A DNA stretch of 40,385 bases from Candidatus Thermoplasmatota archaeon (GTDB lineage: Archaea; Thermoplasmatota; Thermoplasmata; RBG-16-68-12; JAGMCJ01). Under the pieces are notes generated by a model. It saw only the letters and a program-made list of their open reading frames with translations. It searched no databases and was not told where the DNA came from. The translations under genes and the position numbers were made by a program. Location: the NCBI GenBank assembly GCA_022848865.1, contig JAJISE010000016.1:1-40385 (forward strand), in the 5' to 3' direction. Of the stretch, positions 18,379 to 29,284 are shown one piece after another (the stretch's first letter is position 1; each line of letters starts with the position of its first letter).

Positions 18379-19425
18379 ATGGCGATGGAATCCGTTGTTG
18401 AGACTCTGGACGTGAAGCGGAGGAGCGTTTCCGATCTTGTGAAGGCGATGGGGAGGACGGCCTATCAGGGCAGGACGCTGGGAAGAGCAGTGGACATAAT
18501 CGAGAGCATGATACGCGATGAATCCGTGACCATCATGTTCGGATATGCAGGCTCACTCTCGACCGCGGGGCAGTGGAGGACGATCAAATGGTTCATCGAG
18601 CAGGGCTACATCGATGTGCTGGTGTCCACAGGCGCCAACATCTCGGAGGACATCGTCGAGGCGATGGGCTTCAACTACTACCATCTGGACGATCGGATCG
18701 GCTCGACGGATGCCGGGCTGTTCGAGGACGGCTACAACCGGTACTATGATGTTGCTGGAAAGGAAGGCGACTATTTCGAGATGACGAGTCTGATTAGCGA
18801 TTTCATGATGGGGTTGGAGGCGGGCCACAACCACTCTTCAAGAGAAGTCCTGGAGGGCTTCGGGAATTGGCTCGCGGACAAGGGGATTGACTGCATCGTC
18901 TCGTCGGCGGCGAAGCACGCCGTCCCGGTGTTCTGTCCTGCAATCGTGGACAGCCCGTACGGGGATGCCGCACTGATCGCTCACTCCAAAGGGCACGGCG
19001 TGAGCATAGACAATGTGAAGGACTATGTGGAGTTCATGAAGCTCGCGGAGGAAGTGGAGGACACCGGGGCCATCTACATAGGGGGAGGTGTGCCGAAGGA
19101 CTTCATCCAGCTGTTCGCCGCAACATCGGACCTCCTGTACGAGGACCTGAAGGTTCCCGGCAAAGCAGAGGGGCTCAAGAGGAAGGGGACGGATGAGTCG
19201 TACTACCCGCACAAGTACGCGGTCCAGATCACGATGGATTCACCGCAATGGGGAGGTCTGAGCGGAGCGACCCTCGAGGAGGCGATCTCCTGGGGAAAGG
19301 AGTCCGCTGAGACCAGAATGGGCGTTTGCTACTGTGACGCGACGATCGCGCTGCCGCTCATAGCACATTCGCTCTACGAACGTCTGGAAGGGTACGAAAG
19401 GAAACGACGCGCGCTGTACCGGTGA
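18379..19425 (+). CDS. dys: Deoxyhypusine synthase
   Basis: A 348-residue enzyme transferring the aminobutyl group of spermidine to a lysine of archaeal translation factor aIF5A, the first step of hypusine formation. Family landmarks are the N-terminal AYQGRTLGRA, VSTGANISEDIVE, and a C-terminal SGATLEEAISWGK in which K307 matches the catalytic lysine that forms the enzyme-substrate imine. The late YCDATIALPLI stretch is also conserved. The protein is restricted to archaea and eukaryotes plus some bacteria, which supports the archaeal assignment. ATG at 18379 or 18385. It ends four bases before the convergent giant surface-protein gene. Confidence 0.93.
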   Translation: MAMESVVETLDVKRRSVSDLVKAMGRTAYQGRTLGRAVDIIESMIRDESVTIMFGYAGSLSTAGQWRTIKWFIEQGYIDVLVSTGANISEDIVEAMGFNYYHLDDRIGSTDAGLFEDGYNRYYDVAGKEGDYFEMTSLISDFMMGLEAGHNHSSREVLEGFGNWLADKGIDCIVSSAAKHAVPVFCPAIVDSPYGDAALIAHSKGHGVSIDNVKDYVEFMKLAEEVEDTGAIYIGGGVPKDFIQLFAATSDLLYEDLKVPGKAEGLKRKGTDESYYPHKYAVQITMDSPQWGGLSGATLEEAISWGKESAETRMGVCYCDATIALPLIAHSLYERLEGYERKRRALYR

Positions 19426-19429
19426 GAGC

Positions 19430-22400
19430 CTAGTAGACTGGGACTTCCCCTTCGGAGGGGGGTTCCGCCGGTGCTGGAGGCTCATCGGGTTCAACAGGCT
19501 CCTCAGGAATGATCTCCTCGAGTTCGGGGATCTCCTCCTCCATTGGCACGTCCTCCTCGAGCACTGCTGGCTCCTCGACCGGGGCGGGCGGCTTCCTCTT
19601 CATCAGGAGGAGGAGCACCACGATGACTATCAGGATGATTATGATGAGGATGAGCCACCAGGCCTGTGCTATGTCGAATTCAGCTGACGGTGCGGGTGGT
19701 CCTTCTGGCTCGACCACTGTTGTGAAGTCCACTACCTCCTGGGACAAGGAGTTCCCCGCGAGATCCTCAGCTCCTGAGCCAATGGTCAGCGTATAGTCAG
19801 TGTCGTAGATGGCATCCCGCAGCTCGATCGTGACTGCCGAGGAGTCTGCGTTCCAGTAGAAGTCGTGAATCGTTCCGGCCGAGATGTCGGTCGCGGTCTC
19901 GACGGATGCCTCATCCATGGGTTCACTGAAGACGACCACGATCGTGATCGTTCCATCGACCATTGGGATATCGTTGTCTCCGTCATCTGGATACGTCAAG
20001 ATAACCTCTGGAGGCGTGGTGTCGACTGCGGGCTCTGCCTCGGTGTGGAACAGTACGAGATAGTGTTCGAATATCGTGTTCCCAGCCAGGTCCGCTGCAG
20101 TGTCGGTGATATTGACGAGGTAGGACGTGGAGTAGGCCAGAACCGGCAGGATCACCGTCACGGTCGTGTCTCCAGACCAGGAGAAGCCTGTCGGCGTTAC
20201 ACCGCTGATGATGATCGCCGCCTCGACGGATGCTGTGTTCATGGACTCGCTGAACACTATGACCAGATTGGCGTTCACGTTGATGTCCGTCTCTCCGTCG
20301 TCCGGGGAGGTGAACCGTATCACTGGTCGTGTGATATCTGCGCCGGGGGCGAAGGTCGTGAAGTGGAGGGTGAAGTCAGCTGACATGGGGTTCCCCTCCA
20401 CGTCCTCCGCCACGGTGGTTACAGTGACCGTGTATAGTGTGCCTTCCAACAGACCCACAAACTCCACCTCCAAGACCGTGTCGTTGTAAGTCCAGTAGTA
20501 ATTGGTCGCACCCACGACCGGGCTTATCGATACTGCTGCCTCAACAGAATCTGTGCTCATCGGCTCGCTGAAGACTATGTAGACGCTGGCGGTTATCGGA
20601 ACGCCCAGTGCACCTTCCTCAGGATCGGTGAATATGATCTCAGGCGGTATGATATCCACGACTGGAGGATCCTCCGTCGTGAATGCGGCACTGTATGCTG
20701 CGCTGAGCGGGTTGCCCGCTGCGTCTTGGGCGGTCACGGAAACCGACAGCGTGTAGGGTGTTGAGTAGGAGAACGGAGCTGTGGTAATAATCTCAACGAG
20801 TGTGTTGTTGGAGAACCAGCTGTAGCTCTGAATTGCGGCTCCTGATATCGTTATGGCCGATTCCGTCATTATGGTGTTCATGGGCTCGCTGAAGACGACC
20901 TTCAGGATGACATCTATCGGGACGCCGGTGGCCCAGTCCTCGGGATATGAGTATATCACTTCGGGCGATATGATGTCGGGTCCTGCCGACGCTGTGGTCA
21001 TGAAGTTGAAGAAGTATGCGCTGGTCATCGGAATCCCTGACGCATCGGTGGCCGTTGCGTTCACGTTGATCACGTACATCGAGCTGTACGCGAGGTTCGA
21101 CAGACTCAACGTAACAATGTCGTCCTGGAGGTTCCAGTTGTAGGCCGTGATTACGGCTCCGCTGCTTATTGTGATTTCTGCCTCCACAGAGGCCGTGTCC
21201 ATGGGCTCGCTGAATCCTATGACCACCGATGTGCTGAGCGGCTGGTCCGTTGCGCCATCGTAAGGTGATGTGAATATCACGGTTGGCGGTGTTGCATCCA
21301 GTACGGTCACGGTCATCGTGTCGATACCTGCCCATCCTGCACCGTCCCAGACGGTCAATGTGACTATGTAGCCTCCTGGCTCTGTGAAGACGTAGGTGGG
21401 CGATACACCGATCAAGGCGACCACGTTCGCACCTTCTATGAACGTCCACCTGTAGTCGACCACTCCCACATTGTCAGTGGAGCCTGAGCCGTTGAACGTC
21501 ACCACTGTGTCCTCGTTGACGATCTGATCTGGACCTGCGTCCGCAATTGGGGGATCGGCGTCAAAGACTGTCACGACCATGTTGTCCGCGCCGCCGTTTG
21601 AGGCGTTGTCGCGAACGTTCAGGATCGCTGTGTAGTCTCCGGGTGTCACGAATGTGAATGTTGGATTCACACCGTACAGTGTGATGAGTGTGGCGTTGTA
21701 CGTGAATGTCCACGTGTAGTTGACCACGCCCACGTTGTCCGTGGAACCGGAACCGTCGAACTGGACCAGTGTCCCGGAAGGAACGTTCCGATCGGGCCCG
21801 GCGTCCGCGGTTGGTGGTGTCACATCGAGCACGGTTATCTGAACTGTGTCCGTGGCTGGAGGATTCGCCCAATCATCGACTTCCAGCGTGATCGTGTAGA
21901 CCCCTGGCTCGGTGAACACATACGTCGGTGTTGGACCTGGGAGACTCTGCGGAACACCTTGGTCAATGAATGTCCATGTGTAGGATTGGATTTCGACGTT
22001 GTCTGTGGAGTTGGTTCCGTCGAGCAGCACAACGGTGTCCTCGTCAACGATCTGATCGGGGCCCGCATCTGCGATGGGTCCGTCCACATCCCAGATTACC
22101 AGCTGGAGGTGCACATATGCGTAGAAGCTGTACGTCCTCAAGGCAGTCCCCACTCCGGGCGCATTGGCCGTTATGTCGTACGGATTGTAGTGTACGGCAG
22201 TCATGGCATTCCGCCACTGATCGTCCACGAAGTTCAGTCTGAGGAAGCCGTCCGCGCCTGTTGTGCCATTTATGTACGGCGTCCCGAAAGTGTCGCTCGT
22301 ATCGACGAAGGCCCCTGCAAGAGGAGAAGCTCCGTTGGTCATCACCTCGATGTCTATGTACCAGCTTCTCTTGGCCCACGAAAGCGCATCGAGGAACATG

Positions 22401-25400
22401 CCGTTGTTGATGTTGAACGTGGTGTTTATTCCCCAGAGTGTGGAGTTCCCGTCCAGTACAAAGTCGACTTGGGATGCGCTATCAAGCGAAGAGTTGTACA
22501 CCACGAAGTGAGCGCCGGATGGCAGATTGAGAGATTGGTTGTTCATGACGATCTGGCTACTCTCCACGATCGCATCCGAGCTGATTGAGTAGATGCCAGC
22601 CTGGTGTCCCTGAATCAGGGCATCCGAGATCCTGGCGTTCACCCCGAACATCACGATCCCGAACTCACCATTTCCCACGGCCGTGATGTCACGTAGTGTG
22701 ACGTTTGCAGCCGGAGATGCGCTGAAATCGAGCATCGTTCCGGAGCACCATCCGCCATTCTGGCAGTTCGCGAAGAAGTCTGAACCGTCGATGTCGACAT
22801 CAGACACTCCGAAGGCGCCCAGATAGAGTCCGTCCCATCCATTGAGGGCGAAGGTGTCCGATCTCCCTGTGTAATTGAGATTCCCGAAGCCGAAGGCGTT
22901 AATGCCGTATCCGGCGTTGTTGCTGAATTCGTTTGAGCTGGTGACCAGGGTCAGGTTGGACATGGCGAAGACGCCCAAGCCATAGTTCATGGTATTCACG
23001 TTGAATTCCGAAATCGAGATGTCGATTACGGCATCGTTGTTCGAGGAGACATAGAGACCCGCCTGGTTCTTACGGAATGCTGAATCGATAACGTCCAAGG
23101 TCAGCTGCCCGTTGTAGTGGAATATCATCCATCCGGTCGCGTCGTTGCCATTGATCCAACCGCGCCTGATCGTCACGTCGGCGGACCGGTTCAGCTCGAA
23201 GAGGATCTCCCGGTCGTTTCTCAGGGAATACATGTAATCCCATAACATGTCCGAGGTCCCCTCAGCATAGACTCTTGCGGAGTAGCTGCCGACGGAGTCC
23301 ACGGAGAAATCGAAGTAGGAGTCGATCATCAGATGACCGTACGGGTCCGTTGCCGTCAGGTTGAAGTTGACGCGGCTCTGGATGAAGCTGTTCCATTCCG
23401 TTACTAGGTTTGCCGACGGGGCTTCCAGATGGAACCCATCGTGCGCTGCATTGCCCATGCGGTTGTTCAGCATCGTCAGATTGGCCTGACCGCCAGTGAC
23501 AATGTAGACCGAACTATCGAAGTTGCTCTGCTCGAACCTGTTGTTGTCAAGAATGGCATCCAACCAGCCGCCTATGTTGACGTAGAGGGAGTTGTAGTCC
23601 CCGAACCTGACGTTGTTGAAGTGGGCGGTCAGTGTCAAATTGCCTGATGGGAACTCCAGCCAGATTCCATCCACGTAGTTGGAGAACACATTGTTGCGAA
23701 GCGTGACTGTCGCATCCCCTCCCATGCTGTCGGAGTATATTCCTCCCCAGATGTTGCCACCAGTGTTGTTGCTGCTGTCTATGTCAACGGCGCCGTCACC
23801 CGCGACGGCGTAAATCGACCAAAACCCGATGTTCAGGAAGGAATTTCCAGAGACACTGCCTCGTATCCCCGCCCATGCCGCTGAGACAATTCCGAAGTCG
23901 GGTGTTGTCTGAACCGTGTTGTTGAGTATGTCGAACTGCGCGGTTCCCGTATTGGCCAAGACGAGGATGCTGGCGGGAAAGAACATGGGCATAAGGCCGG
24001 TATCGATGAGCCTGTTATATTGGATGTCGGCGAGGACGCTACCAACGTCCGACAAAGCAAGGATGCCAACGTCATTGCAGATGTCGATCGAGTTCTCATA
24101 AGCATAGACCTCAACATCGCCTCCGAACGAGTAGAAGTACATGGCGCCGCAGGTGTTCGGACCGCAGTCGGTCGACGAGTTGGTTATGGTGTTATTGTGC
24201 GACCAAGCAATGATGTACGCATCCAGACCTGAGTACACGGCGACCCCTGGGCCGCTGACGTTCGTGATTGTGTTGTTCGCGACACGGACATCGGCGAACT
24301 GCTGTGACTCAACGTACATGCCATGGCTGCCCGAACCGTACGTGTTGTTGATGGTGTTCAGCTCCATGTTCACGGTTGCGGAGACGCTCGAGAGGATGTA
24401 CACGGCGTCTCCTGAATGGTCGTCGAAATCGTTCCTGGATATGTCCATGTCGACCGTCTCACCGTCGACCACGATCCCGCTGACGCCATTCCACAGAGTG
24501 TTGCCAGCAAAGTTGCCAGTGATGTTCAGTCCGGTGACGAACGCGCCTCGATTGTAGATTGTGATGTCGTTCCGCCGGAATTCGATGTGCGAGTCTGCCG
24601 AAGCTAGAGCAGGGCTGACCCGCAGTGCGACAGAGTGATCCTCTATCCAGTTGTCAGCTGCCACCGCGATGATATCGACACCTGGGGGGGAGCCCCAGGC
24701 AAGTCCGGCCCCTCCGTTCTGGTATATCCATGAGTTCGTGACCACCATAGTGGAGTCGGAGGCGAATGCGCCGTTCCCTGCGTTCTGCATTATGGCGCAG
24801 TAATCCATGAGAAGCGTGGAGCCGCGGTAGGCGTACAAACCATCCACTCCCGGACCCCAGCCGTTTCGAGCGATGAAAGAATCGTTCAGATACATCCTCG
24901 AGCCATTGAGGAAGACGCCCTGTGAGGCCGCCCACACGATCTCGACATCCGTGAATTCGAGCAGGGCGTTCTCCGCACCTACGACACCGTATTCGCCATT
25001 GTAGATCCAAGTCCTCCTGACAATTGCCCTGCTGTGATTTGCGATAAGCCCAATGGAATTCATGTCCAGAATCGAGTCCTCGATAACCGTCAGATCGGAC
25101 TCGGAGTATATGCCGAAGTCGTCACCATAAGTGGGATTGCCCACAGGGGGCAGACCACAATGAACGACCCTGCTGCGGTTCAGCAGGAAGGTCCCGCCCT
25201 GTCTTATGTAGAACCGGTATCGCTCTACGAGTCCGGGACCCTGTATCGTGCTGGCGTCGCTGTCACCCATGTCCAAGGGCGAGAGGCCGTCGCCGCCATC
25301 GTAGACCAGGAATGTCCCACCGGGTTGAACCTCGATGAAGAACTCGCCCGGAAAGGTGCTGTTGATCTGCAGGACCACGTTGAACAGCACCAGTGTGCCT

Positions 25401-25630
25401 TGACCTTCGATTATGAGGTTGCCGTTCACGTAGATCGTCTTGTTCCCGTGGACCACGTAGTCCCCTGCTTCGATGGTCCACGTCCCAGATGTCTCCCAAT
25501 AACCGGGAGAAATCATGGTGGGTGGATTCAGCTCGGCCTTTGCCGACGGCACGAGTGCCGAGAACATCGAAGCCAGAAGCAGCACCATCACTGCCACAAC
25601 CAGATACCTACCGCTCACTCCATTACTCAT
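19430..25630 (-). CDS. Giant cell-surface protein: beta-helix, PKD and SbsA Ig-like domains, C-terminal membrane anchor
   Basis: About 2,066 residues. A signal peptide (to about residue 33, ending SAKA) precedes a very long right-handed beta-helix region (about 40-1150, NosD-like, rich in Asn, Gly and Ser). Three PKD domains follow (from about 1187, each opening like ADAGPDQIV), then five SbsA-type Ig-like domains (about 1447-1970, repeating VFSEPM). A C-terminal transmembrane helix (about 1991-2010) is followed by KRK and a 56-residue cytosolic tail rich in Glu and Pro. Such proteins are surface adhesins or glycan-binding S-layer-associated proteins. Start is uncertain: ATG 25630 with GGGAGAG upstream is preferred; a GTG at 25648 behind GAGGAGGC is plausible. 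A TATA-like TTATAA lies at about 25690. Confidence 0.85.
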   Translation of the reverse strand: MSNGVSGRYLVVAVMVLLLASMFSALVPSAKAELNPPTMISPGYWETSGTWTIEAGDYVVHGNKTIYVNGNLIIEGQGTLVLFNVVLQINSTFPGEFFIEVQPGGTFLVYDGGDGLSPLDMGDSDASTIQGPGLVERYRFYIRQGGTFLLNRSRVVHCGLPPVGNPTYGDDFGIYSESDLTVIEDSILDMNSIGLIANHSRAIVRRTWIYNGEYGVVGAENALLEFTDVEIVWAASQGVFLNGSRMYLNDSFIARNGWGPGVDGLYAYRGSTLLMDYCAIMQNAGNGAFASDSTMVVTNSWIYQNGGAGLAWGSPPGVDIIAVAADNWIEDHSVALRVSPALASADSHIEFRRNDITIYNRGAFVTGLNITGNFAGNTLWNGVSGIVVDGETVDMDISRNDFDDHSGDAVYILSSVSATVNMELNTINNTYGSGSHGMYVESQQFADVRVANNTITNVSGPGVAVYSGLDAYIIAWSHNNTITNSSTDCGPNTCGAMYFYSFGGDVEVYAYENSIDICNDVGILALSDVGSVLADIQYNRLIDTGLMPMFFPASILVLANTGTAQFDILNNTVQTTPDFGIVSAAWAGIRGSVSGNSFLNIGFWSIYAVAGDGAVDIDSSNNTGGNIWGGIYSDSMGGDATVTLRNNVFSNYVDGIWLEFPSGNLTLTAHFNNVRFGDYNSLYVNIGGWLDAILDNNRFEQSNFDSSVYIVTGGQANLTMLNNRMGNAAHDGFHLEAPSANLVTEWNSFIQSRVNFNLTATDPYGHLMIDSYFDFSVDSVGSYSARVYAEGTSDMLWDYMYSLRNDREILFELNRSADVTIRRGWINGNDATGWMIFHYNGQLTLDVIDSAFRKNQAGLYVSSNNDAVIDISISEFNVNTMNYGLGVFAMSNLTLVTSSNEFSNNAGYGINAFGFGNLNYTGRSDTFALNGWDGLYLGAFGVSDVDIDGSDFFANCQNGGWCSGTMLDFSASPAANVTLRDITAVGNGEFGIVMFGVNARISDALIQGHQAGIYSISSDAIVESSQIVMNNQSLNLPSGAHFVVYNSSLDSASQVDFVLDGNSTLWGINTTFNINNGMFLDALSWAKRSWYIDIEVMTNGASPLAGAFVDTSDTFGTPYINGTTGADGFLRLNFVDDQWRNAMTAVHYNPYDITANAPGVGTALRTYSFYAYVHLQLVIWDVDGPIADAGPDQIVDEDTVVLLDGTNSTDNVEIQSYTWTFIDQGVPQSLPGPTPTYVFTEPGVYTITLEVDDWANPPATDTVQITVLDVTPPTADAGPDRNVPSGTLVQFDGSGSTDNVGVVNYTWTFTYNATLITLYGVNPTFTFVTPGDYTAILNVRDNASNGGADNMVVTVFDADPPIADAGPDQIVNEDTVVTFNGSGSTDNVGVVDYRWTFIEGANVVALIGVSPTYVFTEPGGYIVTLTVWDGAGWAGIDTMTVTVLDATPPTVIFTSPYDGATDQPLSTSVVIGFSEPMDTASVEAEITISSGAVITAYNWNLQDDIVTLSLSNLAYSSMYVINVNATATDASGIPMTSAYFFNFMTTASAGPDIISPEVIYSYPEDWATGVPIDVILKVVFSEPMNTIMTESAITISGAAIQSYSWFSNNTLVEIITTAPFSYSTPYTLSVSVTAQDAAGNPLSAAYSAAFTTEDPPVVDIIPPEIIFTDPEEGALGVPITASVYIVFSEPMSTDSVEAAVSISPVVGATNYYWTYNDTVLEVEFVGLLEGTLYTVTVTTVAEDVEGNPMSADFTLHFTTFAPGADITRPVIRFTSPDDGETDINVNANLVIVFSESMNTASVEAAIIISGVTPTGFSWSGDTTVTVILPVLAYSTSYLVNITDTAADLAGNTIFEHYLVLFHTEAEPAVDTTPPEVILTYPDDGDNDIPMVDGTITIVVVFSEPMDEASVETATDISAGTIHDFYWNADSSAVTIELRDAIYDTDYTLTIGSGAEDLAGNSLSQEVVDFTTVVEPEGPPAPSAEFDIAQAWWLILIIIILIVIVVLLLLMKRKPPAPVEEPAVLEEDVPMEEEIPELEEIIPEEPVEPDEPPAPAEPPSEGEVPVY

Positions 25631-25888
25631 TCTCTCCCATATCGCCACAAGAACGCCTCCTCTGTGATGGCGGGTAATCCACATCGGCTTATAAGAATGT
25701 TGACGACGGAGCTGATGGTGGCCATTGCGGGCCTCACAGGGCCTCGGAGACTCGGTGAGGTTCATTGAGATGCGGCCCACTGAGTACGTGAAGGACTGGT
25801 GTTTGGCTCAACTCCTCCCGCCACACCCGGGTCCTCGATCCTGTATCTCCCCTGAATGACAAACGAGAGTTCATAACCATCGGCATCC

Positions 25889-25949
25889 CAAGTACTACAC
25901 AGCGACGCCGAGGTGGGGCGTCTAACAAGTACCAATGTTTAAAGGAGGT
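25889..25949 (+). promoter_or_regulatory. Structured leader with strong ribosome site of the small secreted-protein gene
   Basis: A hairpin-forming inverted repeat GACGCC-N7-GGCGTC (25904-25922) is flanked by two CAAGTAC copies (25889-25895 and 25926-25932). Then AAAGGAGGT (25941-25949) sits 6 bases from the ATG at 25956, an unusually perfect anti-16S match. A TATA-like TTCATAACC near 25870 would give a ~60-nt leader containing the hairpin. The stretch between 25631 and 25888 otherwise holds the promoters of the divergent giant surface-protein gene and this gene; no other gene is seen. Confidence 0.5.
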
Positions 25950-25955
25950 AAATAT

Positions 25956-26483
25956 ATGAAAACAATATTCGCCACAGCTCTGACCGCGTTGGTCGCCTTC
26001 ATGATGGTCTTTTCCTTTTCGGCTTCGGCCATGACCGTCGAGAAGATCCCCAAGGGATTCGAACAGGAGCCCATAATCGAGGTCGACGGTGTCGACTACT
26101 ACTTGGCTGGCCCGCCGTTCCTCAACGACATACCTGGACACTACTGGAACGTCAATGGAAACCACATAACCGGTCTGCACTTCAACGAGGGTCCGATGCC
26201 GAACTTCTGGGCATCTGACATCGACGAGGGCGCCCTGCTGTTCAAGATCGATGCGATCATCGGCTACAACGATGGGAGCATGGTCCCGACGCAGCCCGGC
26301 TACGTTCACTGGCACGAATTCGCTCCAGTCGATCCGAGTATGCCGTACGATCCCGACATCGGGCTCTTCCTGAAGCATACAGCGGTCGACTACTTCTTCT
26401 TCGAAGCTGGACCTATGCCCATGAACGCACATTGGGTAGAGCCTGGTATAGACTACAACTTCATGAACAATGTGGTCTACTAG
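25956..26483 (+). CDS. Small secreted protein of unknown function, strong expression signals
   Basis: A 175-residue protein beginning MKTIFATALTALVAFMM with a clear signal peptide ending near SASA (about residue 25). The mature part of ~150 residues is rich in Trp, Tyr, His and Pro, with motifs VDYYLAGPPF, GHYWNVNGNHITGL, GYVHWHEF and MNAHWVEPG. The histidines could bind a metal, but I recognise no family. It has no membrane anchor and only a few basic residues. An AAAGGAGGT ribosome site decides the start at 25956 over an in-frame upstream ATG at 25935. A private terminator follows. Its codon use is more A/T rich than most neighbours. Confidence 0.75.
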   Translation: MKTIFATALTALVAFMMVFSFSASAMTVEKIPKGFEQEPIIEVDGVDYYLAGPPFLNDIPGHYWNVNGNHITGLHFNEGPMPNFWASDIDEGALLFKIDAIIGYNDGSMVPTQPGYVHWHEFAPVDPSMPYDPDIGLFLKHTAVDYFFFEAGPMPMNAHWVEPGIDYNFMNNVVY

Positions 26484-26502
26484 GCAGGACGACTAATACG
26501 AA

Positions 26503-26536
26503 GAGGACTCCTGGAGTCCTCACTCTTCCCTTTTTC
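26503..26536 (+). terminator. Hairpin plus T-tract terminator
   Basis: GAGGACT (26503-26509) pairs with AGTCCTC (26515-26521) around CCTGG, and CCCTTTTTC (26528-26536) follows. It lies 20 bp after the secreted-protein stop codon, where a hairpin plus T-run would end that transcript. The short remaining gap to 26619 shows nothing else. Confidence 0.55.
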
Positions 26537-26619
26537 TGAACTAGTGATTTCCTCACTGATTGTTGACTACTTAGGAATCCCTGCAAGTGGTTGGAGCAAG
26601 CATGTCCGAGATAGGTCTC

Positions 26620-28554
26620 TCATAGCTCCAATTCTCCAATCTCTGCGAGATCGTCCATTCGGTTTATCTTCACCAGGCTTTCGGAGATTGTGTAGATGAG
26701 CTCTTCGATGTACAGCGACCTGCGAACGCTGTAACGTGACCATCCCCCGTAGTCCCCTTCCAGAATGTCGTTGGCGTGTGATATCCCACCTCGTGGTTGA
26801 AACCCACCCTCAATGGTGAGGGAGAAGACGCACGCACCAGTCCACACAATATCTCCTCGAGTGTTGGGCGGAATGCCATTTGGGTACTTGTCGGGGTCAA
26901 TCTTGGCTAGGGTTATCGGGATTATCAGGAGGTTGTTCGACCTGCTGAACAGGAAGGCCTTGTGGTCGTAGAGGGCCTCCGAAGTGGTTCCCCGGTCTCC
27001 AATCACATACTTGGACAACTCGACCGGATTCGTCACTTCAGTCACGTCGAACAGAGAGAGCTTGACGCCTTGATACCAGGCGAAGTTGCCTTCCTCAGCC
27101 TCGACTGTCTCCTTCCCCAGGCCAATCATATGGTTCTCGTCGTACGGGTGCAAGTAATCTGAGTATCCTGGTATCTTGAGCTTGCCGAGGACCTGGGGAT
27201 TAGTGGGGTTCGATAAGTCAATGACGAAGAACGGATCGATCTTCTTGAACGTCACCAGATAGCAGCGGTCTCCCATGAACCTCGAGGAGTATATCTTCTC
27301 TCCAGGAGCTAGGTTCTCAAGTCGGCCCACAATCGCGAGGTTCTGATCAAGCACGAAGACGTGGTTCTTCGAATCGGAGGTCATTCTCCCCAGGCGGCCT
27401 TCGGTTGTGGCAATCCTGAAGTAACCCTCATGCTCGTCCATGGAGAACTGGTCGTTGATCTTTCCAGGGACTTCTCCTCTGGCGACGTACTCGATGACGT
27501 CCCCCTGAATCGATATCTTATGGACGGTTGTCGCCTCGGATCTTTCGTTGTTGGGATCGCTAAACCAGTAGCTGTAGTAGAGCGACGCAAGGTACACGTT
27601 CTCCTGAGAGACATAGACCTCCCCAGCGCTATCGGTCAGGAAGACGCCGTAGCTGACTTCTTCAGTGTTGATGTTTATGGAGACGATCGTTGTGTACACG
27701 AAACTCGGGGCAGGTTCATCGAAGAAGCAGATGTCCCAGGGCTCTACTGAATGGGTGGAGCCCCCGCTTGATATTTCTGGTAGTCTGAAGATATACTCAC
27801 CCATGGCGTAGTACTTGACTCCCTGGGAGGCGATAACGTAGACGAATTCGCCAATCATGCGGGAGTCGACGAACCTCCCTGAGATGGACACGTTGGTGAC
27901 GTAGGCTGGCGAGGATCTCGATGAGATATCGAATATGTGCACATTGGTTCCTCCCCGAGAGGCTCTCTCAAACAGAATGAGTCTTGAGCCGGACACAAAT
28001 ATCTCCGAGACGTCGTTCTCAACTGATATTCGGGAAAGAATCTGAGCGTCCTCCCCAGGATAGGCCTTGAGTACTGCCACCTCACCGTTGGAGACCACGT
28101 AAAGATGTTCCCCATCAGTCTTCACGATGTCGGGCTCATCAACACCTTCAACCTGAATGTTCGTCGTTGAGTAGTCCAGAGACCCTTCGTCCGCGAAACC
28201 GAGCAGCATTGTGCCCCCCCAGAATCCTCCGACTATCTCAGCGAAGCCCCCACCAGAGTAGTAGTCATAATACGTGGTCGTCGCGTTTTCCACGAAGAGT
28301 TCTAGCTCCTCTTGGCTTGAGAATCTATTCGGACACGTGCAGTTCGCTCCCACGTCAAAGCTCGTGCCTTCCGAAGGTGTCACTACTTCAACGTCTTCGT
28401 CGTCTTCAACTTGGACCACATCCTCGACGTCATCCCAGACAGAATCGTCAAACCAGACGACGGGAGTGATTTGAGCGGTTCCGGGAAGGTACAGCAGAAT
28501 CGCTATCATTATGACTCCCGATGTTAACGCACTTCTCCTCCACATATTGCCCAC
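26620..28554 (-). CDS. Secreted C-terminal beta-propeller protein (COG4880-like)
   Basis: A 644-residue exported protein. After a signal peptide/anchor (about 10-28, VIMIAILLYLPGTA) and an acidic linker (DDVEDVVQVEDDEDVEVV), the rest is a predicted beta-propeller. The conserved opening TNIQVEGVDEPDIVKTDG is the signature of the secreted beta-propeller family found in many archaea. Propeller blades with HIFDIS, YVVSNGEVAVL and ending GELEL follow. Function is unknown; probably surface-bound binding or processing. The start is GTG 28554, preceded by AAGGAGGT at the right spacing. In the gap 28555-28654 only a promoter (AAGCTTATG near 28600) and the ribosome site are seen. Confidence 0.85.
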   Translation of the reverse strand: MGNMWRRSALTSGVIMIAILLYLPGTAQITPVVWFDDSVWDDVEDVVQVEDDEDVEVVTPSEGTSFDVGANCTCPNRFSSQEELELFVENATTTYYDYYSGGGFAEIVGGFWGGTMLLGFADEGSLDYSTTNIQVEGVDEPDIVKTDGEHLYVVSNGEVAVLKAYPGEDAQILSRISVENDVSEIFVSGSRLILFERASRGGTNVHIFDISSRSSPAYVTNVSISGRFVDSRMIGEFVYVIASQGVKYYAMGEYIFRLPEISSGGSTHSVEPWDICFFDEPAPSFVYTTIVSININTEEVSYGVFLTDSAGEVYVSQENVYLASLYYSYWFSDPNNERSEATTVHKISIQGDVIEYVARGEVPGKINDQFSMDEHEGYFRIATTEGRLGRMTSDSKNHVFVLDQNLAIVGRLENLAPGEKIYSSRFMGDRCYLVTFKKIDPFFVIDLSNPTNPQVLGKLKIPGYSDYLHPYDENHMIGLGKETVEAEEGNFAWYQGVKLSLFDVTEVTNPVELSKYVIGDRGTTSEALYDHKAFLFSRSNNLLIIPITLAKIDPDKYPNGIPPNTRGDIVWTGACVFSLTIEGGFQPRGGISHANDILEGDYGGWSRYSVRRSLYIEELIYTISESLVKINRMDDLAEIGELEL

Positions 28555-28654
28555 CGTATCACCTCCTTATAGAATCTGTTGCCCGACTGACATAAGCTTT
28601 CTGGTACAGTTTTTGTACAGATAGGTGGACTCGTCCGGAGCGCGGCGTCTTGAT

Positions 28655-29284
28655 CTATGGTCCAGGCAGCGGGACGGGGATTCCAGAAACAGGCCCGTTC
28701 GACTGAGGAGTGTGCGGGGAGTTGAACCCTTCAGCTATAGTAGCCGTGGTATTGCACATACCCCACATGTAGTCGTCATCCCAGACAACCAAGAGGACGC
28801 TGAAGGTTGCGGGCCACCAATATGTCCATTCAGGATTCGAACCTCCTCCGAAGTCTCCATCACCGAAGTCCCAGTAGTATGTCACATCTGTGTGGCGGAT
28901 GGTCGCCCTTCCGGTGGCATTCACCTGCAGTCCATTCCAATCACCAGGGGAAGGCGTAGAGGGGTTGGATGTGTAGTCTATCGCTGAGGCGGGCGTTCCC
29001 ACTGAATAGAGGACTCCCTCCAGGTAGATCGTGTAGAGGCCATTCAAAAGGACCTCGACTCCTGGTTCGACTGTCAGGTTCGCGGGACTGAGGACGACGA
29101 CGTCGACCTCGACCCAGTATGGGCTTCCGTCCACGGTCCAGCTCGTGTCTGTTGAGATTGGCCCCTGGACTGGAGTCCCTGCGGTTGCTCGGTTTGGGCT
29201 GATGAGAAGGCTTGTGATGACCAAGACTCCCACGACGAGAACTGCTTGAATGCTTGACCTCGGGGTTCTCATTCGCCACAACAT
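28655..29284 (-). CDS. Short secreted beta-helix/PKD protein, possibly an internal-deletion derivative
   Basis: A 209-residue protein with a signal peptide (to about residue 35, ending RATA). It then has a beta-helix cap segment of the kind that opens NosD-like proteins (SWTVDGSPYWVEVDVVVL, LTVEPGVEVLLNG, PGDWNGLQVNATGRATIRHT). This joins abruptly at about residue 135 to a PKD-like strand YYWDFGDGD with later LLVVWDDDYM. The tail carries no membrane anchor and is Pro/Gly rich. It looks like two ends of a larger surface protein spliced together. ATG 29284 is favoured by a TATA-like AAGGATAAGT about 25 bp upstream. Gap 29285-29419 contains no gene. Confidence 0.65.
   Translation of the reverse strand: MLWRMRTPRSSIQAVLVVGVLVITSLLISPNRATAGTPVQGPISTDTSWTVDGSPYWVEVDVVVLSPANLTVEPGVEVLLNGLYTIYLEGVLYSVGTPASAIDYTSNPSTPSPGDWNGLQVNATGRATIRHTDVTYYWDFGDGDFGGGSNPEWTYWWPATFSVLLVVWDDDYMWGMCNTTATIAEGFNSPHTPQSNGPVSGIPVPLPGP

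Follow-up and report, generated by a model that had tools for sequence, protein, structure and literature searches.

To our knowledge, few structured leaders common to many genes are known in archaea. The preQ1 riboswitches are very small pseudoknots located directly upstream of the Shine-Dalgarno (SD) sequence, and the genes they precede are related to their ligands. In the tisB mRNA of Escherichia coli, an H-type standby pseudoknot affects ribosome loading downstream (PMC7708055). Comparative genomics has also yielded flpD and other candidate structured RNAs, one of them for Euryarchaeota, as described in Weinberg 2010 (PMC2864571). We report here on a leader element found in front of gene P (P0001) in the window, that is, the whole 40,385-nucleotide stretch of Thermoplasmatota DNA that was analysed. 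The same element stands in front of many unrelated genes and probably controls the strength of their translation.

The orphan gene and its product

Gene P (positions 25956-26483, forward strand) encodes a 175-residue secreted orphan protein. Its open reading frame, its signal-peptide-like start, AAAGGAGGT and its length all agree with the earlier note on this DNA. An in-frame ATG is also found at 25935, the start equipped with an SD being that at 25956. The dN/dS ratio is ~0.1 against the sister-family relatives G010 and G005 (dS 1.40-1.77); judged by this comparison, gene P is real and under purifying selection. Its ribosome site, previously described as perfect, is strong without being unique, as its best-start SD score is matched or exceeded by 18 of the 118 ORFs in 140 kb of the same genome, a control that is biased upward because any start was accepted. 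The high expression proposed earlier finds no backing in codon usage, which has no discriminating power: the codon score of gene P exceeds those of all 13 reference ribosomal-protein genes, but 20/105 ORFs score as high or higher. High expression is something that we only infer. Downstream of the gene, a hairpin (26503-26521) and a run of five T (26531-26535) form a probable terminator (26503-26535, forward strand). Hairpins and T-runs of differing sequence occupy the equivalent site in relatives, whereas a consensus terminator scan scored nothing on the forward strand downstream of the gene.

The gene is present as a single copy in its 2.03-Mb genome and its distribution is patchy. Homologues occur in three of the five genomes of the genus, its own included, and in two sister-family genomes (5/100 relatives), in 5/400 genomes of the class, and in G107, the one positive among 12 genomes of another class; a second draw across the phylum returned them in 3/388 genomes. 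The other genus copies reside in JAJISH010000111.1 and JAGLRN010000092.1, both from Thermoplasmatota metagenome-assembled genomes. A further candidate from the phylum profile searches, in G186, was dismissed as a chance match of 51 residues within a 905-residue frame resembling a periplasmic binding protein. No relatives of the protein were returned from the viral contigs, plasmids or phages searched.

The window region 19410-28875 is a variable surface-protein island. Genome G001 is devoid of the gene for the 2116-residue PKD/Big_5/beta-helix protein (19430-25780), window position 19477 being joined there to 25829, and in G002 some 380 bases replace the whole 19410-28875 segment, gene P included. 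In the sister family, gene P adjoins a NosD-like gene instead of a Beta_propel gene. Gene P thus keeps its leader and its trailing hairpin while its surroundings change, and the gene of this exported orphan would carry the leader element along into different genomic neighbourhoods.

The product of gene P is a secreted, beta-rich orphan protein. Searches of Pfam, NCBIfam and PDB sequences returned no match at E≤10 and PHROGs nothing relevant, and the absence of a clear match to a known family thus agrees with the previous description. Two AlphaFold runs reached pLDDT values of 43 and 39, too poor for a fold search. If the protein alone mattered, it might be an extracellular metalloprotein binding metal through the histidines of its HYW, HFN, HxHE and KHTAV motifs, a reading that we consider doubtful. 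Five of its seven histidines (H62, H75, H118, H120 and H141) and E121 are invariant in all six homologues, H118, H120 and E121 belonging to the VHWHEF motif. However, the histidine excess is only slight, because 58 of the 175 positions (~34%) are invariant in this set, in which identity goes down to 44%. Moreover, no fold was obtained, and the AHWVE motif is no conserved site, since its H159 is replaced in two of the six homologues (by lysine in G005 and by another residue in G107). H70 varies too, and the protein is devoid of cysteine.

The leader of gene P

Three segments of the forward strand compose the leader. The P1 hairpin (25904-25922) possesses a GACGCC/GGCGTC stem and a GAGGTGG loop (25910-25916). 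The ensuing tail, CAAGTACCAAT (25926-25936), contains a CCA (25932-25934) that can pair with the UGG of the P1 loop (25914-25916). Lastly, the P2 hairpin, GUUUA [AAGGAGG] UAAAU (25937-25953), presents the SD in its 7-base loop. The 5' hairpin reported before is real and conserved: 18 of its bases (ACGCCGAGGTGGGGCGTC) are identical in all five leaders from two archaeal families between which synonymous sites are saturated, and the string TACCAAT is likewise unchanged between both families. Regarding the CAAGTAC repeat said to flank it, conservation is limited to the copy on the 3' side (25926-25932), which belongs to the tail; the 5' copy (25889-25895) varies among relatives, and pairing between the two copies is therefore not conserved either. 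The leader of the G107 homologue, from another class, has no such element. Folding of the whole gene P leader gives no excess stability over shuffles (z 0.33; z -1.33), and its minimum-energy fold contains a UACC x GGUA pairing and is devoid of the P2 hairpin. The leader is indeed unusual, as the earlier note had it, but it belongs to a multi-gene RNA element, of which it is a single copy, and is no private expression signal of gene P.

Occurrence of the element

When the order (37 genomes) was searched for exact copies of the 15-base core, seven were found in G005, three in G016, one in G010, two in G014 and four in G018. A reversed control pattern matches nowhere in these five genomes, even when one mismatch is tolerated. 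These places precede start codons, those of secreted paralogues starting with MKWKYAAVLASF, whose full-length members reach ~850 residues, and also that of a different 152-residue secreted protein. Three further exact matches (G019:C75, G025:C64 and G033:C135) lie within coding DNA and look like chance. In the genome of gene P itself, a copy with one mismatch, a GAGGCGG loop and a TACCGAT tail is located upstream of an ATP-cone protein gene.

A covariance-type search with model R1, built from 14 leaders and run over the 37 genomes, provided 39 places that were inspected in context, of which 29 were kept, one is a truncated copy (L120) and nine were judged chance matches (L116, L118, L119, L124, L125, L127, L130, L134 and L137). 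Among the places inspected, the element is present in at least 15 of the 37 genomes. Model R2, built from 30 leaders, was run over 389 genomes of the phylum with stricter filters and matched 11 of them at E≤0.02; inspection of the context confirmed the element in six genomes outside the order, three of the class (G038, G048 and G418) and three of other classes (G118, G164 and G277). The R2 matches in G074 and G217 were not confirmed in context. In total, 59 leaders were accepted on inspection. Within the order they represent 15 genomes or more, and the remainder come from the six outside genomes and one viral contig; three of the 59, two in G164 and the viral one, are not followed by a clear start codon.

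Some copies are incomplete. The truncated copy in the genome of gene P (L120:2371-2394, reverse strand) is a second ATP-cone leader with a tail and only half of the hairpin. Two of the five matches in G164 are hairpins devoid of a tail (G164:C251:15106 and 18522; L153 and L155), located a few hundred bases past copies that have one. In G005, two secreted-paralogue hairpins (L058 and L060) stop at contig ends, which suggests that the repeated leader breaks the assembly and that copies are undercounted. The secreted family itself (L055, L057 and L061-L069; up to ~860 residues) is multi-copy with near-identical leader and signal-peptide DNA, and the three of its proteins that were scanned have no Pfam match.

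Architecture and covariation

The element comprises a stem of 5-6 pairs, a 7-base loop, a linker, a tail of consensus (A)ARUACCNA, the SD and the start codon. Covariation was analysed in an alignment (A10) of 37 of the 59 leaders, 35 of them distinct. The 22 others are two near-identical gene P leaders, seven near-identical paralogue leaders, three leaders of G164 and ten with odd features or long linkers (L104, L114, the second of L115, L123, L126, L131, L132, L133, L135 and L136).

P1 emerges from this alignment as an RNA hairpin with compensatory changes. Four of its six pairs are changed on both sides among the 35 distinct sequences, and the cells with such double changes number 27, compared with 8.2 on average in shuffles (0/500 shuffles), a signal that sliding destroys; the outermost pair is unpaired in 19/35 distinct sequences. 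These compensatory changes point to RNA rather than DNA. A DNA-level operator or a shared promoter copied between genes would fit the upstream DNA that the secreted paralogues also share by descent, but it is made highly improbable by the stem changes and by the lack of a common AT-rich box at a fixed upstream distance in 43 leaders. In the same 43 leaders, a placement of the hairpin at the 5' terminus of the transcript, based on TATA-like boxes, was dismissed, as these have no common position. With its conserved stem, its compensatory changes and its location upstream of start codons, the element qualifies, on comparative grounds, as a structured cis-acting leader RNA.

The P1 loop is mostly GAGGNGG or AAGGAGG, with T (16 rows), A (15), C (5) or G (1) at position 5. 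This base predicts one base of the tail in all 37 rows (T-A 16, A-C 15, C-G 5, G-C 1), and none of 200000 permutations over 25 gene-family units reaches the observed mutual information, although a single gene family supplies the C-G class and a single place the G-C class. One genome harbours three of the classes, with its own gene P (T-A), the ATP-cone gene (C-G) and ydhR (A-C). Twenty of the 22 leaders outside the alignment obey the same rule by eye. Of the other two, L123 could be assigned to no loop-tail class, and L133, left out because the patterns searched allowed no T at the variable position of the tail, combines a loop A with a tail U, a Watson-Crick pair. The linkage of loop base 5 with the tail base suggests a pseudoknot, and the G-C pairs 14 and 15 are invariant. 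What speaks most against a pseudoknot of plain Watson-Crick pairs is the A.C class (15/37 loop-tail pairs), which could be explained by an A.C wobble or by a bulged A with G4-C pairing. Long linkers occur in G164 and, with an extra hairpin, in L131-L133; they would be expected of a tail that has to fold back spatially onto the loop. L131, L132 and L133 are leaders of PKD proteins, and their extra hairpin lies between P1 and the tail.

In gene P and the secreted paralogue family, comparison places the SD in the loop of a second covarying hairpin. The SD, AAGGAGG, is framed there by arms in which all five pairs are changed on both sides; among the 13 rows compared (12 paralogues and gene P), nine are distinct, all cells are paired, and the covariation score is reached in 0/500 shuffles. 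The three PKD-protein leaders have a P2-like layout by eye, and the L131 fold contains a P2-like hairpin. No SD hairpin was seen in the ATP-cone leaders, and P2 is not universal.

Genes behind the element

The element with its UACCNA tail is found ahead of the SD and start codon of unrelated genes. Recognised products are ATP-cone, CMD, SCO4226-like, GYD, ydhR, DUF4440, T4 gp19-like tail tube and PKD proteins; Pfam gives no match for several secreted proteins, for very short hydrophobic ORFs or for unknown products. No single pathway links them. This weighs against the idea of a riboswitch, in which a small pseudoknot of the H type beside the SD would bind a metabolite or ion as preQ1 riboswitches do: the near-invariant loop and tail, the covarying stem and the position directly upstream of the SD would suit it, but the downstream genes share no pathway and the core is very small, and we regard it as improbable.

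The heterogeneity of the genes would agree with a constitutive ribosome standby site, or an mRNA-stabilising leader, for abundantly made single-gene products, in which nothing is sensed. A strong SD, a viral copy beside head genes and the E. coli standby pseudoknot (PMC7708055) argue in the same direction. In silico, the loop GAGGUGG scores -10.3 kcal/mol with a typed anti-Shine-Dalgarno sequence. However, codon usage bears no mark of high expression, and the 20-kb ribosomal-protein cluster of the genome of gene P (L022) contains no copy of the element, which within this cluster is thus no ribosomal-protein leader. This second alternative is rather unlikely, less so than the riboswitch.

The viral copy (L164:2389-2420) belongs to contig IMGVR_UViG_3300033149_005121, where it is followed by an ORF lacking a clear start codon. 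Its neighbours are a gene that, by eye, resembles that of a major capsid protein, and a cement-like one (PF09956, E 2.9e-5, 24.8 bits for a cut-off of 24). Another pattern scan of viral contigs, aimed at the T-A class, gave no match. Two T4 gp19-like tail tube proteins (PF06841; L110:683-1183 and L123:642-1145), from two families of the order, are encoded behind the element and have signal-peptide-like N-termini. An exported tail tube protein is odd.

A proposed model for translational control

We assign a probability of about one half to the reading that the leader belongs to a structured cis-acting RNA family acting on translation initiation. Pairing of the tail with loop positions 5-7 (NGG x CCN) would create a small pseudoknot of the H type. 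Since the P1 loop is itself SD-like (GAGGUGG, GAGGAGG or AAGGAGG; in the alignment, AAGGAGG in 6/37 rows and GAGGAGG in 9/37), the UACC of the tail may alternatively pair with the real SD (GGUA or GGUG) in many leaders. The P1 loop would then act as a competitor that holds the tail off the SD (ON), the closed state being that with the tail on the SD. The tail would be displaced, and initiation altered, if the pseudoknot were lost or if the P1 loop were occupied by a protein or ribosome, and a trans factor may bias the competition. UACC can pair 4/4 with the SD region in 22/37 rows, a count that allows G-U pairs, is based on rows of which four were badly cut, carries no shuffle control and is weakened by GGAGGUG being an ordinary strong SD. 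The working mode may be a tail switch, a ribosome standby site or a riboswitch.

A bolder version of this tail competition, which we put forward tentatively and hold to be less probable, is an archaeal 'twin Shine-Dalgarno' switch extending across the phylum. The tail would choose between the P1 look-alike and the real SD, which some genes display in the 7-base loop of a second hairpin, and initiation would be set by this choice. Such a switch would serve a scattered regulon of secreted and small proteins, and a virus appears to use it too.

Comparison with known systems

Apparently, the element is a new, undescribed cis-acting translational leader of Thermoplasmatota. The window gives no Rfam 15 match at the gathering cut-off, seven leader loci searched against Rfam 15 at E≤1 give two sub-gathering matches, neither of them over the element, and searches of the open-licence literature returned no description of it. 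If the model is true, an element spread over several classes, a viral contig and genes without relation to one another would represent a common post-transcriptional control layer of Thermoplasmatota. It would also mark a regulon in mostly uncultured organisms, and offer a simple testable model for archaeal initiation set by RNA structure.

As a candidate structured RNA obtained by comparative genomics, the element can be likened to flpD and the other motifs of Weinberg 2010; the word 'Thermoplasm' is absent from the text of that article (PMC2864571). The flpD motif is in Rfam, where the element has no match. Archaeal ribosomal-protein leaders (PMC7247131) are likewise structured and act on the gene they precede. 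However, they precede ribosomal-protein genes, and the element is absent from the L022 cluster. The preQ1 riboswitches (PMC11625349) are among the closest known systems. They differ from the element in consensus, and it has no match in Rfam.

We know of no ribosomal protein S1 of the tisB-relevant kind in archaea. The tisB leader (PMC7708055) and the element have in common a 5' mRNA H-type pseudoknot, predicted here, upstream of the ribosome-binding site, but tisB needs S1 and a far-off site and serves one toxin mRNA. The element, unlike tisB, is a small conserved motif close to the SD of many unrelated archaeal genes.
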